From contig JAUNWQ010000008.1 of assembly GCA_030540225.1 (NCBI GenBank), positions 3,248 through 45,167 of the forward strand: a DNA stretch of 41,920 bases, read 5' to 3'. The notes below the pieces were generated by a model. That model was given only the letters and a program-made list of their open reading frames with translations, searched no databases and had not been told where the DNA came from. Shown piece by piece: positions 24,926 through 30,261 of the stretch (the first letter of the stretch is position 1; each line of letters begins with the position of its first letter). Origin of the DNA: Coriobacteriia bacterium (GTDB taxonomy: Bacteria; Actinomycetota; Coriobacteriia; Coriobacteriales; Eggerthellaceae). Made by a program: the position numbers and the translations under genes.

Positions 24926-27766
24926 CTAGTCCTCCTCGGAAAAGCCGATCGAGTCGAGCACGTCGCCGCAGCGCTCGCAGACATGCGGATGATGGGCGTT
25001 GCCACCGAGCTCGCGCACGTTCCAGCAGCGCGGGCACTTCTCGCCTACCGCAGGAGCGACGGCACAGGAGAAGCCCTCGCCCGAGACGACTTCCACCGCC
25101 GCGCAGACGAAGACCTCGGCGAGGTCGACATCGGCCAAAGCGGCGGCGACATCGGCGGGAAGGGTGAGCGTGGCGGAAGCCGCCTGGCTCGTGCCCTCCG
25201 TCACGACGCCCGCTTCCTTCGCTTCCTCGAACGCCTTGGTGAAGACGTCGCGCGCTGTTGCGAGCTGGTTGTAAGCGGACAGCAGCGCGGAGGCTTCCTC
25301 TGCAGACCAAGGAGCCTCGTACCAGTCGAGCAGAGCAGCGCGGGTCTGACCGTCGCGAATCGACTCGGGCAAAAACGCCATAACCTCGTCACAGGTGAAC
25401 ACGAGAATCGGCTGCAGGTCGTGCACGAGCATCGAGAGAATCTGCGCCCACACGGTAAGGGCGCTGCGACGTTCCTGGCCGTCAGCCTGGCCGCAGTAGA
25501 CGCGGTCTTTGGTAGCGTTCAGGTAGCCGTTAGAAAGCTCAGTCACGTAATCGTAGAGGTTGCGGTACACCACGTTGAAGCGATAGCCCTCGTAGGCTTC
25601 CGTCACGATCTCGTGCACCTGGCAAAGGCGGGCAAGCGCGAGCTTGTCGTAGCCCGCAAGGTCGTCTAGCGCCACGGCGTCGGTCGCGGGATCGAAGCGA
25701 CCCTCGATCTCGCCGAGCAGGAAGCGGAGCGTGTTGCGAATCTTGCGATACGCCTCGCCCACGTGGGAGAGGATCTCACCGTCGCAGGTCACGTCGTTGG
25801 AAGTATCGACGGAAGAGACCCACAGGCGCATGACGTCGGCGCCACGGGTGTCGCATTCCTTGTTTGGATCGATGACGTTGCCGAGTGACTTGGACATCTT
25901 GCGTCCCTGGCCGTCGAGCGTGAAGCCCTGCGAGACGACCGCCTTGTAGGGAGCTGTGCCGTACGCGCCCACCGAGGTCATGAGCGAGCTCATGAACCAA
26001 CCACGGTGCTGGTCGGAGCCTTCGAGATACATATCGGCCGGGAACTCAAGGTTGTCGCGGTGCTTGCACACGGCGGTGTGCGAAACGCCCGAGTCCCACC
26101 ACACGTCGAGGATATCCTTGTTCGCCTTCAGGTGATGGCCGCCGCACTTGGGGCAGACGCACGCGTCGCCGAGGTAGCTTGCTGGGTCGTCGGTGAACCA
26201 GCAGTCGGAGCCTTTCTCGCGGAAGAGCGCGATAACGGCGTCGAGCGTTGCATCGTTCACGACGGTTTCACCGCAGTCTTCGCAGGTGAAGGCAGGGATA
26301 GGCACACCCCAGTTGCGCTGACGGGAGATGCACCAGTCGGGACGGCCCTCCACCATCGACCCGATGCGCTTCACGGCATGGGGCGGGTAGAACGCAACCT
26401 TCGAGAGCTCCTCGAGCGCCTCCTCGCGCAGCGTGCGGCCGTCGTCGAGCGCTTTGTCCATCGAGACGAACCACTGGCTCGTGGCGCGGAAGATGACAGG
26501 CTGCTTGCAGCGCCAGCAGTGCGGATAGCTGTGGTTGATGTCCTCGTGAAGGATGAGCGTGCCGCGCTCGCGCAGCCACTCGATGATCTTCGGGTTGGCC
26601 TCGTTGACCTCCATGCCGGACCAGGGGCCGCCCGTGCCCATCTCGTCGCCCTTGTAGAAGCGACCGTCGTCGTCGACGGGCATGACCACGGGAATATCGA
26701 ATTTCATGCCGACGAGGTAGTCGTCGACGCCATGCCCGGGAGCACCATGGACGATGCCGGTGCCGTCATCCAAAGTGACGTAGTCGGCGTAGACGAACTC
26801 GCCCTCGACTCCCTGGTCGCCGAAGATGGGCTGCTTATACTTGTTGTGGGCCAGCTCGATGCCGGTCATGCTCCAAGGCTCGCCGTTGGCGCCGCGCACA
26901 AGCTCGACTTCGCCATAGCCGAACTTCTCGCAGTCCTTCTCCACGAGCGCCTGCGCCATGATCTCGGCCTTGCCGTCGTGGATGACCGCGACGTAATCGG
27001 CCTCGGGGTGCAGGATGACGATGTCGTCGGCGGGCAGGGTCCAGGGAGTGGTGGTCCAGATGTCGACCCAGAGCTTGCCTTCCCAAGCCTCAAGGCCCGC
27101 GGGCACCGTCGTCATCTCGAAGCGCACGAAGATGGCGGGGCTGACCTCGTCGCCGTACTCGATTTCCGCCTCGGCGAGCGCCGTGTGGCAGTGCGAGCAC
27201 CAGTGAACCGGCTTGCGGCCGCGATAAATTGCGCCTCGATCGAAAATGGCCTTGAAGATCTCGACGTCGGTGGCATCGTAGTCGTTCACGTAGGTGAGGT
27301 AAGGGTTTTCCCACTCGGCAAGCACACCCAGTCGCTTGAAACCCTGGCGCTGCGTGTCGACCTGCTCGACGGCCATCTTGCGGCAGAGCTCGCGGACCTT
27401 CTCGGTGGGCAGCTGGTTGAATTTCTCAGTACCGAGCATGGTCTCGACCTTGTGCTCAATCGGCTGACCGTGGCAGTCCCAGCCGGGCACATAGGGGGTG
27501 CGGAAGCCGCGCATCGCCTTGTAGCGGTTGATGATGTCCTTCGAAATCTTGTTCTGCGCGTGGCCGAGATGAATGGGGCCGTTCGCGTACGGGGGGCCAT
27601 CATGCAGAACAAAGGGCTTAGCGTCCTTGTTCTTCTCCTGCAGCTTCTCGTAAACATGGTCCTCTTCCCACTCCGCGAGGCGCTTGGGCTCGTTTTTCGG
27701 GAGATTACCCCTCATCGCGAAGTCGGTAGTGGGCAGGTTCATCGTTTTCTTGTAATTGCTCGCCAT
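24926..27766 (-). CDS. ileS: Isoleucyl-tRNA synthetase
   Basis: Charges tRNA-Ile. The 946-residue length fits bacterial type 1 IleRS. The Rossmann domain shows PYANGPIHLGHAQNK (HIGH-equivalent HLGH) near residue 60, and KMSKSLGN near residue 600. The editing domain lies between (TTTPWTLPADD, GIVHGAPGHGVDDY). The C-terminal zinc finger CPRCWNVRELG..HVCERCG is intact. It heads the run of five minus-strand housekeeping genes. No T-box or other recognisable leader signature was found upstream; only a short GC hairpin lies in the presumed 5' UTR. Confidence 0.97.
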   Translation of the reverse strand: MASNYKKTMNLPTTDFAMRGNLPKNEPKRLAEWEEDHVYEKLQEKNKDAKPFVLHDGPPYANGPIHLGHAQNKISKDIINRYKAMRGFRTPYVPGWDCHGQPIEHKVETMLGTEKFNQLPTEKVRELCRKMAVEQVDTQRQGFKRLGVLAEWENPYLTYVNDYDATDVEIFKAIFDRGAIYRGRKPVHWCSHCHTALAEAEIEYGDEVSPAIFVRFEMTTVPAGLEAWEGKLWVDIWTTTPWTLPADDIVILHPEADYVAVIHDGKAEIMAQALVEKDCEKFGYGEVELVRGANGEPWSMTGIELAHNKYKQPIFGDQGVEGEFVYADYVTLDDGTGIVHGAPGHGVDDYLVGMKFDIPVVMPVDDDGRFYKGDEMGTGGPWSGMEVNEANPKIIEWLRERGTLILHEDINHSYPHCWRCKQPVIFRATSQWFVSMDKALDDGRTLREEALEELSKVAFYPPHAVKRIGSMVEGRPDWCISRQRNWGVPIPAFTCEDCGETVVNDATLDAVIALFREKGSDCWFTDDPASYLGDACVCPKCGGHHLKANKDILDVWWDSGVSHTAVCKHRDNLEFPADMYLEGSDQHRGWFMSSLMTSVGAYGTAPYKAVVSQGFTLDGQGRKMSKSLGNVIDPNKECDTRGADVMRLWVSSVDTSNDVTCDGEILSHVGEAYRKIRNTLRFLLGEIEGRFDPATDAVALDDLAGYDKLALARLCQVHEIVTEAYEGYRFNVVYRNLYDYVTELSNGYLNATKDRVYCGQADGQERRSALTVWAQILSMLVHDLQPILVFTCDEVMAFLPESIRDGQTRAALLDWYEAPWSAEEASALLSAYNQLATARDVFTKAFEEAKEAGVVTEGTSQAASATLTLPADVAAALADVDLAEVFVCAAVEVVSGEGFSCAVAPAVGEKCPRCWNVRELGGNAHHPHVCERCGDVLDSIGFSEED

Positions 27767-27805: not shown

Positions 27806-27843
27806 GCGCACGAGTGCGCCATCCGTCAAACCACAAAATTATA
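27806..27843 (-). promoter_or_regulatory. Probable ileS promoter (-10) and 5' UTR hairpin
   Basis: On the minus strand TATAAT (27838-27843) lies 72 bp before the ileS ATG; the -35 region at 17 bp (TGGAAT) is weak. Downstream, 27806-27819 forms GCGCA-CTCG-TGCGC, a compact hairpin in the leader. Confidence 0.5.
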
Positions 27844-28076
27844 TCTTTTTAGCTTTCATAATTCCATCAAGCCCATGACCTGCACATACTATTCCAATAG
27901 TCCCAGGAATTGCACTAAAAACAGGGACTTAGGCAATGGGAAGGTAACGTTATTTCGGTGCCTTTCCGTTAGGGATTGGACGACTCATTGATGGTGAGCG
28001 TGCCGGGATGGCGCTCCGCATAGGCGTACTCGTCAGCTGTCATTTATGAATGAAATATGATGATACCCCCATAATA
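27844..28076. other. AT-richer junction between host and prophage-side genes
   Basis: No convincing gene. It is visibly more AT-rich than the flanks. It contains a spaced inverted repeat AGTCCC/GGGACT (27899-27904 and 27924-27929) and, at 27969-28043 on the minus strand, a 24-codon frame beginning MTADEYAYAERHPG without a ribosome site. It may hold the phage attachment site or a gene remnant. The other prophage end is outside the window, so the core repeat cannot be identified. Confidence 0.4.
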
Positions 28077-28104
28077 TTGCATTATATAGGGGTTGCCCTA
28101 TAAT
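28077..28104 (+). promoter_or_regulatory. Promoter of the small-peptide/RHH unit
   Basis: TTGCAT (28077-28082) and a perfect TATAAT (28099-28104) with a 16-bp spacer. Expected start near 28111. An 18-bp palindrome fills the spacer and overlaps the -10. Confidence 0.75.
28085..28102. promoter_or_regulatory. Palindromic operator-like site
   Basis: Perfect dyad TATAGGG-GTTG-CCCTATA placed between -35 and -10. Its position would let a bound protein block RNA polymerase. The RHH-like protein encoded 210 bp downstream is the obvious candidate repressor, by inference. Confidence 0.65.
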
Positions 28105-28114
28105 AATAGATGTT

Positions 28115-28134
28115 GGAAGGCGATAGGGCCTTCC
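28115..28134 (+). repeat. 5' leader hairpin
   Basis: GGAAGGC and GCCTTCC form a perfect 7-bp stem with a 6-nt loop, beginning about 4 nt after the predicted transcription start. Such 5' hairpins protect transcripts or tune translation. Confidence 0.65.
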
Positions 28135-28159
28135 GAAGAGAAGCGAAAGGGGGAAAGCG

Positions 28160-28231
28160 ATGAAGAGGGTCAGCCTGGAGCTGGCCATCGGGAAGTGGGT
28201 AATTCGAATCACCGTTCGAAAGGCTCGATAA
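28160..28231 (+). CDS. 23-residue peptide, amphipathic beta-hairpin-like
   Basis: A very small ORF with a strong ribosome site (AGGGGG about 7 nt before ATG 28160). The peptide MKRVSLELAIGKWVIRITVR, ending KAR, alternates hydrophobic and charged residues on both sides of a GK turn, a beta-hairpin-like pattern with net positive charge. It is framed by a promoter and 5' hairpin upstream and a 12-bp hairpin 18 nt downstream. I do not recognise a named family. It could be a leader peptide controlling the downstream gene, a small toxin or membrane peptide, or a protein-binding peptide. Translation is inferred from the ribosome site and organised surroundings. Confidence 0.6.
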   Translation: MKRVSLELAIGKWVIRITVRKAR

Positions 28232-28249
28232 CCCAACCCGACGACCAAA

Positions 28250-28277
28250 GGGGCCGCTTGCAAAAGCGGGCGGCCCC
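28250..28277 (+). repeat. 12-bp hairpin with AAAA loop after the 23-residue ORF
   Basis: Arms GGGGCCGCTTGC (28250-28261) and GCGGGCGGCCCC (28266-28277) pair over all 12 positions with two G-U pairs and an AAAA tetraloop. No T-run follows, so it is not a standard intrinsic terminator. It lies between the small peptide and the RHH-like gene. Confidence 0.85.
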
Positions 28278-28312
28278 GCTCCAGGCCGATTGTACCATCG
28301 CTTGACATAGAC

Positions 28313-28489
28313 ATGGCAACGGAAGCGCAGAAAAAGGCGACGGACGCCTACCGCAAGAGGAACGTGAAGACGTTCAATGTGAAGTTCTTCCCCGCCGACA
28401 TGGAGCTGTACGAATGGCTGCAGGCTCAGGACGGCAAGAACCAGTACGTCAAAGACCTGATCCGCAGGGATATGGAGGGAAGATTCTGA
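28313..28489 (+). CDS. Ribbon-helix-helix-like small protein
   Basis: A 58-residue basic protein. After a polar N-terminus (MATEAQKKATDAYRKRN) it has the pattern of an Arc/CopG/MetJ ribbon-helix-helix unit: strand KTFNVKFFP, helix A ADMELYEWLQAQ, turn with Gly-Lys-Asn, helix B QYVKDLIRRDM. RHH proteins bind DNA as dimers and commonly repress their own promoters. No ribosome site is visible before ATG 28313, so its translation may depend on upstream events or a leaderless transcript. It lies on the strand opposite to the prophage genes and is followed by its own terminator. DNA binding is predicted from pattern only. Confidence 0.75.
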   Translation: MATEAQKKATDAYRKRNVKTFNVKFFPADMELYEWLQAQDGKNQYVKDLIRRDMEGRF

Positions 28490-28523
28490 AAAAACTTTGC
28501 TGACCTCCGCGACAAATTAAGGA

Positions 28524-28556
28524 CCCCGCACCGCCAATGAAGGTGATGCGGGGTTT
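28524..28556 (+). terminator. Terminator-like hairpin after the RHH-like gene
   Basis: Stem CCCCGCA/TGCGGGG (28524-28530 and 28547-28553) followed by TTTACTGT. The U-run is short. It closes the plus-strand unit; the spacer on to 28627 also has TTACG-TTAT-CGTAA near 28590. Confidence 0.6.
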
Positions 28557-29459: not shown

Positions 29460-30173
29460 CTAGCCCAGCTTCTCGATGAGCTTGTCAAGCTTAGCGTCGA
29501 CTGCCTTGATGTAGTCGGCATTGTCGGCACATTGCTTGGCAATCCACTTGATGTGGTCGTGGTCGTTGAGCTCCATGCCGCGACCCGTTGGGTCGTAAGT
29601 CCCGACGCACTGCTCGTAAATTGTCGCCAGTAGCTTGTCCTGATGTTCGGTGAGTCCCATGTCCTCTTCCTCCTGATTCTCGTTGTAGTCTGGCCGCACG
29701 ACGCAGCGCACGGAGCCGTAGCCTCGCTGGCGCCGTGCGACGACGCCGCCGTTCGACTGCGAGCCGCCATCGCCGCTGCTGGTGTTGCCCTCGATGGTGG
29801 TCATGTACCCCTCGCCATGGTGGTTCTCCTCGACGATGCCCACGTGGTCTGCCAGGCCGTCGCCGCCCCAGTCGAACAGCACGAGGTCGCCAGGCTCGGC
29901 GTCCTCGCACGAGACGGTGGCCCCCGCGTCATCGCCCGCGCTCACGATGTCGGGGCAGTAGGCGGACGGCATGCCCGCGCAGGGGACGCCCGCCCAGTCC
30001 AGGCAGTATGAGGCGAACATGGCGCAATACGGGACGCCTGATGTTCCGAAGTACGGCTCGCCCCTCTTCTCGGCGAACCATCGCCCGAACACGGTGCCCT
30101 CCTCTGGGTCCGTCCAGCGCGAGTAGCCAATCCAGTCCCGCGCGCAGTAGAGCACGTCGCTAATCGTCCCCAT
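29460..30173 (-). CDS. Endolysin, N-terminal CHAP-type amidase/peptidase
   Basis: Phage lysin of 237 residues that cuts host peptidoglycan after holin release. Residues about 15-155 form a CHAP/NlpC-P60-like cysteine hydrolase: the nucleophile in VPYCAMFASYCLDWAG, the His in LADHVGIVEENHH, and IEGNTSS further on. A linker (YNENQEEED) leads to a 66-residue C-terminal region (MGLTEHQDKLLATIYEQCVG onward) that may bind the cell wall. Start ATG 30173 follows GGAGGGCGGAG and overlaps the preceding small gene by 14 bp. The Met at the start of the C-terminal region has its own ribosome site, so a separate short product is likely. No signal peptide, so holin-dependent. Confidence 0.88.
   Translation of the reverse strand: MGTISDVLYCARDWIGYSRWTDPEEGTVFGRWFAEKRGEPYFGTSGVPYCAMFASYCLDWAGVPCAGMPSAYCPDIVSAGDDAGATVSCEDAEPGDLVLFDWGGDGLADHVGIVEENHHGEGYMTTIEGNTSSGDGGSQSNGGVVARRQRGYGSVRCVVRPDYNENQEEEDMGLTEHQDKLLATIYEQCVGTYDPTGRGMELNDHDHIKWIAKQCADNADYIKAVDAKLDKLIEKLG
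29658..29674 (-). promoter_or_regulatory. Internal ribosome site and start inside the endolysin gene
   Basis: AGGAGG (29669-29674) lies 8 nt before an in-frame ATG (29658-29660) precisely at the linker/C-terminal-domain boundary. It would yield a 66-residue C-terminal product. Confidence 0.6.
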
Positions 30174-30261
30174 CTCCGCCCTCCTTCGGCTCGAAGTCGG
30201 GCTCGTCGTGCGAGTCCTGCGACTCGATGAGCCGCTTTCTCTCATCGGTCAGCTCGTCCAT
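30160..30261 (-). CDS. 33-residue acidic protein in the lysis cassette
   Basis: Small ORF between holin and endolysin, beginning MDELTDERKRLIESQD and ending in an acidic Gly/Asp-rich tail. AGGAGGG precedes ATG 30261, and the ORF overlaps the endolysin start by 14 bp and follows the holin stop directly, consistent with translational coupling. No family recognised. It may only serve to couple endolysin translation. Confidence 0.6.
   Translation of the reverse strand: MDELTDERKRLIESQDSHDEPDFEPKEGGDGDD

Follow-up and report, generated by a model that had tools for sequence, protein, structure and literature searches.

The window, a stretch of 41,920 nucleotides that is part of contig C92 of the Coriobacteriia genome G000, holds at positions 28077 to 28556 a group of small elements packed around a tiny open reading frame, and we wanted to know whether these elements belong together and what they might do. 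A sequence-only reading had proposed a self-contained unit at a host/prophage junction, perhaps an autoregulated switch or small-peptide system. Every element that it had named was found in place when the DNA was read directly. These elements are:

28077 to 28104, plus strand: promoter, read directly, with TTGCAT as -35 (28077-28082), 16 nt, and TATAAT as -10 (28099-28104)
28085 to 28102, no strand: palindrome TATAGGG-GTTG-CCCTATA, read directly, predicted operator of the RHH-like protein; the promoter regions of relatives have other palindromes
28113 to 28136, plus strand: hairpin at the 5' end of the mRNA, obtained by folding, with 9 pairs, G-U included
28160 to 28231, plus strand: 23-aa class A peptide MKRVSLELAIGKWVIRITVRKAR, predicted toxin, whose family profile finds new cassette loci and whose relatives' ORFs point to purifying selection
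28250 to 28277, plus strand: 12-bp GC hairpin, read directly and folded; on the opposite strand, predicted 5' stem-loop of an antisense RNA
28313 to 28489, plus strand: 58-aa RHH-like protein, predicted autorepressor, with an AlphaFold2 model and a family present in 68/396 Coriobacteriia genomes
28521 to 28556, plus strand: terminator-like stem-loop with a short T tail, read directly

The unit lies just inside the left end of a prophage

We looked at the surroundings of the unit by comparison with G001, a genome of the same genus. Upstream lies the host gene ileS (24926-27766, minus strand, named by eye from its sequence), and identity to G001 stops shortly after it, at 27843. Past this junction, G001 continues into a region that is located on contig C150 in G000, where the other prophage end was found beside a tyrosine-integrase-like reading frame (read by eye). 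Both junctions have the core ACCACAAAA-TATA in common:

27830 to 27843, no strand: attL core at the host/prophage junction, where identity to G001 ends, with an attR-like copy on C150 of G000 by the integrase-like frame

Because the identity to G001 ends here and the core is common to both junctions, the second of them by the integrase-like frame, the left end of a prophage falls within the window. The unit sits inside the prophage, about 235 bp from the left attachment site, on the strand opposite to the adjacent phage genes such as the endolysin gene (29460-30245), so that both the junction and the strand proposed for it were borne out. Two side observations concern the same region: a short stretch 5' of the promoter (27984-28031) matches elsewhere in G001 (C16) and partly in G000 (C127), and a long ORF runs on the minus strand from 28033 to 28314. 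A blastn search of phage DNA gave no match, tblastn of the RHH-like protein gave two weak records in phages and none in plasmids, and three single-protein viral scans added few new loci. With Rfam at the gathering score, tRNA was the sole match.

This location invites the idea of a phage regulatory or immunity switch made of a small repressor and its operator, or of superinfection exclusion near the attachment site, the peptide blocking incoming phage. The unit has its own promoter and a phage context, and accessory genes commonly sit after the lysis genes near attL. However, such a function explains by itself neither of two features described below, a lock on the peptide start and an antisense promoter motif, and PADLOC gave no defence family match for the window's proteins. 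We consider it very unlikely as an account of the unit, although it is compatible with a toxin, which could serve exclusion.

The small protein resembles an RHH repressor and the promoter carries a palindrome

In the AlphaFold2 model (mean pLDDT 88), the 58-aa protein has a helix at residues 4-17, an extended stretch at 18-26 and two further helices at 27-38 and 42-57. These modelled elements fit those expected of an RHH monomer, in agreement with the RHH-like label given before. No Pfam or NCBIfam match was found, and the PHROG matches were weak, their function being unassigned. The best PDB profile match was 2kke_A (E 0.034). Fold searches of the monomer against the PDB, Foldseek among them, gave no match, which is uninformative, since the RHH ribbon forms only in the dimer. 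Autorepressors of the Arc/CopG type have about 58 aa, a strand followed by two helices, and a palindromic operator over the promoter; compared with them, the protein of the window has an additional N-terminal helix (4-17) and lacks a Pfam match. A relative 58% identical to it is encoded in a Slackia sp. MAG. Besides the 68/396 Coriobacteriia genomes, the profile found relatives in 33/138 genomes of the window's family and in 33/140 of another family, in sets that overlap.

The promoter had been described as carrying an 18-bp perfect palindrome. Promoter and palindrome are both there; the perfection extends to the two 7-bp arms, which surround four unpaired bases (7/9 pairs). The palindrome covers the promoter spacer and extends four bases into the -10. 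Neither the promoter nor the 3' stem-loop was among the sites of a strict sigma-70/terminator scan, and only three T follow the stem-loop, so that the label 'terminator' is weak even though the structure itself was confirmed.

We then compared the 95 bp upstream in 34 loci, sorted into the classes A and B described below. Class A (16 loci, combined p 1.4e-9) and class B (18 loci, combined p 7e-11) both had palindromes in excess of shuffles. The best palindrome had its centre in the -10 or within the 20 bp preceding it in 24/34 loci and lay away from the promoter core in the other 10, the window's locus among them: there, another inverted repeat, upstream, scored above 28085-28102. Palindromes of 18 bp with at least 8/9 pairs were present in 10/34 loci, against 0.44 in shuffles, and nine of these 10 have TATA or TATG at the left end and TATA at the right end, with inner bases that differ. 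The window's palindrome has the same 18-bp frame.

The peptide, hairpin and RHH order is conserved in relatives

The upstream regions of 103 distinct RHH loci were sorted by eye; the class A, class B and 39-locus sets used here were chosen from them by eye, not blind. In class A (12/103 loci), one short peptide is followed by a GC hairpin and the RHH gene, as in the window. Two class A loci, L154 and L155, were recognised later, at RHH genes already in the set (L042 and L034). In class B, a sister layout, a peptide of 36-58 aa is followed by a hairpin, a second peptide of 22-35 aa and the RHH gene. Neither cassette was recognised in about 60 of the 103 loci, where other accessory genes may replace the peptide. 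The flanking ORFs of the 34 loci (50 and 65 ORFs) matched 43 and 70 PHROG families, counted per family and not per locus. Among the best 25 of the 43 and the best 25 of the 70, endolysins, HNH endonucleases and terminase large subunits lead and integrases are present; the cassette is therefore largely a phage gene set.

A purine-rich site precedes the 23-aa ORF, as expected from the ribosome site noted before. Class A peptides share the pattern K/R-V/I-x-L/I/V-E-L/V...V-I-R...V-R-K/R, and four loci, designated A', have MSVTVRIWRF-like strands instead. When a class A profile built from 8 rows was run on 396 Coriobacteriia genomes, 11 places reached E<1e-3; another four, with E 0.016-0.034, were set aside. 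Seven of the 11 were the profile rows or L106, a near-copy, as expected, and four were new (L154-L157). In 396 phylum-wide genomes, few of them Coriobacteriia, only the window's own genome gave a place at E<1e-3. In ten of the 11 places, an RHH-family gene follows directly (in one case truncated at the end of a contig), so the order of peptide, hairpin and RHH gene is kept in relatives. It is this conservation across relatives, and not the window alone, that makes the cassette a more-than-chance unit, and it supports the idea of a self-contained one, which a lack of such conservation would have refuted.

The eleventh place, L157 (contig C9 of G320), lies upstream of a 71-aa HTH_17 gene. Peptide, hairpin and lock arm are all there, and the HTH_17 gene stands in the position of the RHH gene, as if the regulator had been exchanged.

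Synonymous differences exceeded non-synonymous ones (pS > pN) in 8/8 pairs of peptide ORFs from three groups, the pairs not all being independent. L035 and L046, for instance, differ by 7 synonymous and 2 non-synonymous changes, and the pair L087/L106 differs at two sites only. Judged from these substitutions, the class A peptide ORF is coding and under purifying selection, to which RNA structure inside the ORF may contribute. The peptide frames of L015, L154, L155 and L046 seem to start at ATA, CTG, ACG and GTG, respectively, each after a purine-rich site, and such starts may limit peptide output. In L035, L046 and L018, the peptide ORF contains an inverted repeat of the type GAGCTAACG ... 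CGTTAGCTC, which could pair early codons with the ORF end, so the coding region may be structured. None of 14 class A peptides reached a 17-residue Kyte-Doolittle mean of 1.6, and they are not membrane helices like the described type I toxins. In class B, 17/19 first and 15/18 second peptides are hydrophobic by this value, enough for a membrane helix.

The operon layout and the operator would also fit a type II-like pair, with the RHH-like protein as an antitoxin that would both repress the operon and act on the peptide by direct binding; RHH antitoxins commonly autorepress. Type II toxins, however, are far larger than a peptide of 20-30 aa. Neither the window's peptide nor its RHH-like protein matched a known toxin family in Pfam, NCBIfam or PADLOC, the regulator differs in L157, and the lock and antisense motif would be left unexplained. 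We regard such a pair as very unlikely.

Class A mRNAs are predicted to fold back on the peptide start

By eye, the stretch 3' of the hairpin looked complementary to the ribosome-binding and start site of the peptide of the same locus. The complementary arms of the window, from complementarity and folding, are:

28155 to 28162, plus strand: lock 5' arm AAGCGATG, with the start codon within
28173 to 28181, plus strand: second 5' arm of the lock, GCCTGGAGC
28278 to 28286, plus strand: second 3' arm of the lock, GCTCCAGGC
28296 to 28303, plus strand: lock 3' arm CATCGCTT

The hairpin between the two sides (28250-28277) has a tandem U.G step. We paired each start site with the stretch of its own locus and with that of every other locus. 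With the whole interval as target, class A gave p 5e-5, and the same method gave no signal in 18 class B loci (p 0.27). With the target limited to the part 3' of the hairpin, 11 class A loci gave -20.8 kcal/mol for their own stretch against -13.9 kcal/mol for swapped ones, a difference reached in 0/200,000 permutations; L106 had been left out before these counts as a near-copy of L087. When each locus's own target was shuffled, nine of the 11 loci were equalled by at most 6/300 shuffles. With the short start-site window, L001, which is the window's locus, and L046 alone were within the shuffles (85/300 and 87/300). When the start-site window was extended to +35, so that the second helix of L001, between 28173-28181 and 28278-28286, was included, L001 came first of 16 in both directions, with 1/500 shuffles as good.

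Five further loci, whose hairpins and starts were set by hand, gave 351/20,000 alone and, with the others, 0/200,000 for all 16. Among these five, L126 had already been inspected when the test was made and also contributes a row to the peptide profile, the peptides of L126 and L156 are similar, and L154 and L155 are those that lay at RHH loci already in the set. L154 did poorly: its own stretch ranked 11th of 16 start sites, and 262/500 shuffles were as good with the long window.

We also computed the openness of the start site in ensemble folds. The mean was 0.31 for the full leader against 0.57 for RNA cut after the hairpin, and the full leader was the less open one in 15/16 loci (Wilcoxon 9e-5). 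With the 3' stretch reversed, openness was 0.43, the full leader being lower in 12/16 loci (p 0.02). Because the 3' stretch is complementary to the ribosome-binding site of the peptide and covaries with it between loci, we predict a lock on the full mRNA, which in these folds would open when the RNA is cut after the hairpin. A closed start site in the toxin mRNA, which is common, not universal, in type I systems, was found in silico for class A only.

To account for the inverted arms, we also weighed an invertible DNA segment; it was dismissed on reasoning alone, as the arms differ between loci and some pairs are G.U. A protein 91% identical to the RHH-like protein, P0004, has an N-terminal extension that looks like the translated hairpin and lock stretch. 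This suggests that the stretch is conserved and that the extension is a mis-called start.

The same elements could be a non-toxic regulatory leader. Peptide ORF, hairpin and fold-back would then tune the RHH gene by attenuation or translational coupling, and the RHH-like protein would act on the phage, with neither toxin nor antisense RNA. The RHH gene is indeed commoner than the cassette (68/396 genomes; about 60 of 103 loci have no recognised cassette), the lock arm of L001, 10-17 nt 5' of the RHH start, could affect that gene too, and some peptide starts are non-standard by reading (CTG, ACG, ATA). The complementary partner is, however, the peptide's own start site, L157 keeps the peptide though an HTH_17 gene replaces the RHH gene, and a leader leaves the strand-specific antisense -10 unexplained. 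We consider a leader of this kind unlikely.

An antisense promoter-like motif follows the hairpin

Next to the 3' side of the hairpin, an extended -10, TGNTANNAT, can be read on the minus strand. The window has:

28289 to 28297, minus strand: antisense extended -10 TGGTACAAT in L001, from best-match tests and the 39-locus count, with a predicted start near 28282 and a course across the peptide ORF

In best-match tests, the combined p was 3e-13 in class A (11 loci) and 3e-6 in class B (18 loci). On the antisense strand, 24/39 loci have a hexamer that agrees with TATAAT at 5/6 positions or more; on the sense strand, 5/39 do. Shuffles gave 4.0 (sd 1.8), and 0/2000 reached 24. The antisense -10 had a G in the TG position in 14 loci, against 0.9. 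Of the five further loci, four have the antisense -10 (2/5000 shuffles). For the four A' loci, the top-scoring antisense match coincides in part with the start of the RHH gene and may be the RHH spacer; two of these loci (L037 and L095) are among the 24/39. By eye, no convincing consistent -35 was seen before the antisense -10, and the strict scan gave no terminator-like site on the antisense path of the window. An RNA started from this motif would contain the complement of the hairpin first and would then run through the peptide gene. Class B shares the antisense motif and the palindromes with class A, without the lock.

A probable type I-like module under its own repressor

The self-contained unit proposed for the window is supported, and the lock, the antisense motif and the two-peptide sister cassette, which had been missed, turn the proposed 'switch or small-peptide system' into a specific type I-like prediction. 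Since the lock and the antisense -10 occur together with the promoter palindrome, the best reading is that the cassette is probably a type I toxin-antitoxin-like module under a repressor from its own operon, with toxicity, antisense RNA and repressor binding as predicted properties. By binding the palindrome, the RHH-like protein would keep the promoter repressed. The full mRNA would fold back through the helices 28155-28162/28296-28303 and 28173-28181/28278-28286, which would close the peptide start while the RHH gene could still be read; the complementarity and covariation of these arms are observed, and their folding and the RHH translation are predicted. Trimming of the mRNA from the 3' end to the GC hairpin would remove the lock, in line with the in silico truncation that opens the site, and the peptide would be made. 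In cells that keep the prophage, an antisense RNA started at the observed motif and running from the hairpin across the peptide gene would neutralise the short mRNA. By analogy with known modules, the target of this cationic and strand-like peptide is probably the membrane; were the cassette lost or silenced, processed mRNA would remain with no antitoxin to counter it, so that loss of the prophage would be penalised.

Known systems resemble parts of this scheme. The abstract on yonT/SR6/yoyJ of the B. subtilis prophage SPbeta describes a type I module with a polycistronic mRNA, in which the antisense RNA SR6 overlaps two genes, the first toxin gene at its end and a second small toxin gene at its start, a layout like that of class B; a repressor gene and a fold-back arm are absent from this abstract (PMC5848175). 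Unlike these toxins, the peptides described here reach no known toxin family cut-off. Toxin mRNAs that are locked, opened by processing and then targeted by antisense RNA are outlined as textbook type I (PMC4147584; PMC11228461). As in this hok/sok type, the start site here is predicted to be closed by mRNA structure, but the lock arm lies between the peptide and repressor genes of one mRNA, and no leader ORF of the mok kind was noticed. The type I toxins reported from C. difficile prophages have a hydrophobic N-terminus, a lysine-rich tail and a convergent antisense RNA (PMC6563280; model NF047374). The first peptide of class B resembles them in make-up and shares the prophage location (PMC6563280); only 2/19 match the model NF047374, weakly and below its cut-off (best E 0.018). 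The hydrophobic class B peptides are in this respect like prophage type I toxins. Neither PMC6563280 nor PMC7699646 contains the word 'ribbon'. Judged by titles and the starts of abstracts, no paper in the literature searched describes such a module from Coriobacteriia or one with a same-operon repressor.

Compared with known type I modules, the cassette is new in having a repressor gene conserved within the operon, a lock that covaries and locus-specific promoter palindromes. Also new are the HTH protein that takes the repressor's place in L157 and the lack of a membrane helix in the class A peptide. More tentatively, the cassette might represent a new kind of type I system, which we rate as somewhat less likely than not, in which a strand-forming cationic peptide toxin, a fold-back lock, an antisense antitoxin started from the shared hairpin and an exchangeable repressor (RHH or HTH) provide three layers of control, with operators and locks diversifying from phage to phage.

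If the type I-like reading is true, a toxin family not yet described is present in a common gut lineage. The covarying lock and the operator would then be a test set for the evolution of locked toxin mRNAs and of repressor specificity, and the class A peptide, with about 22 residues, would be an unusual strand-type toxin.
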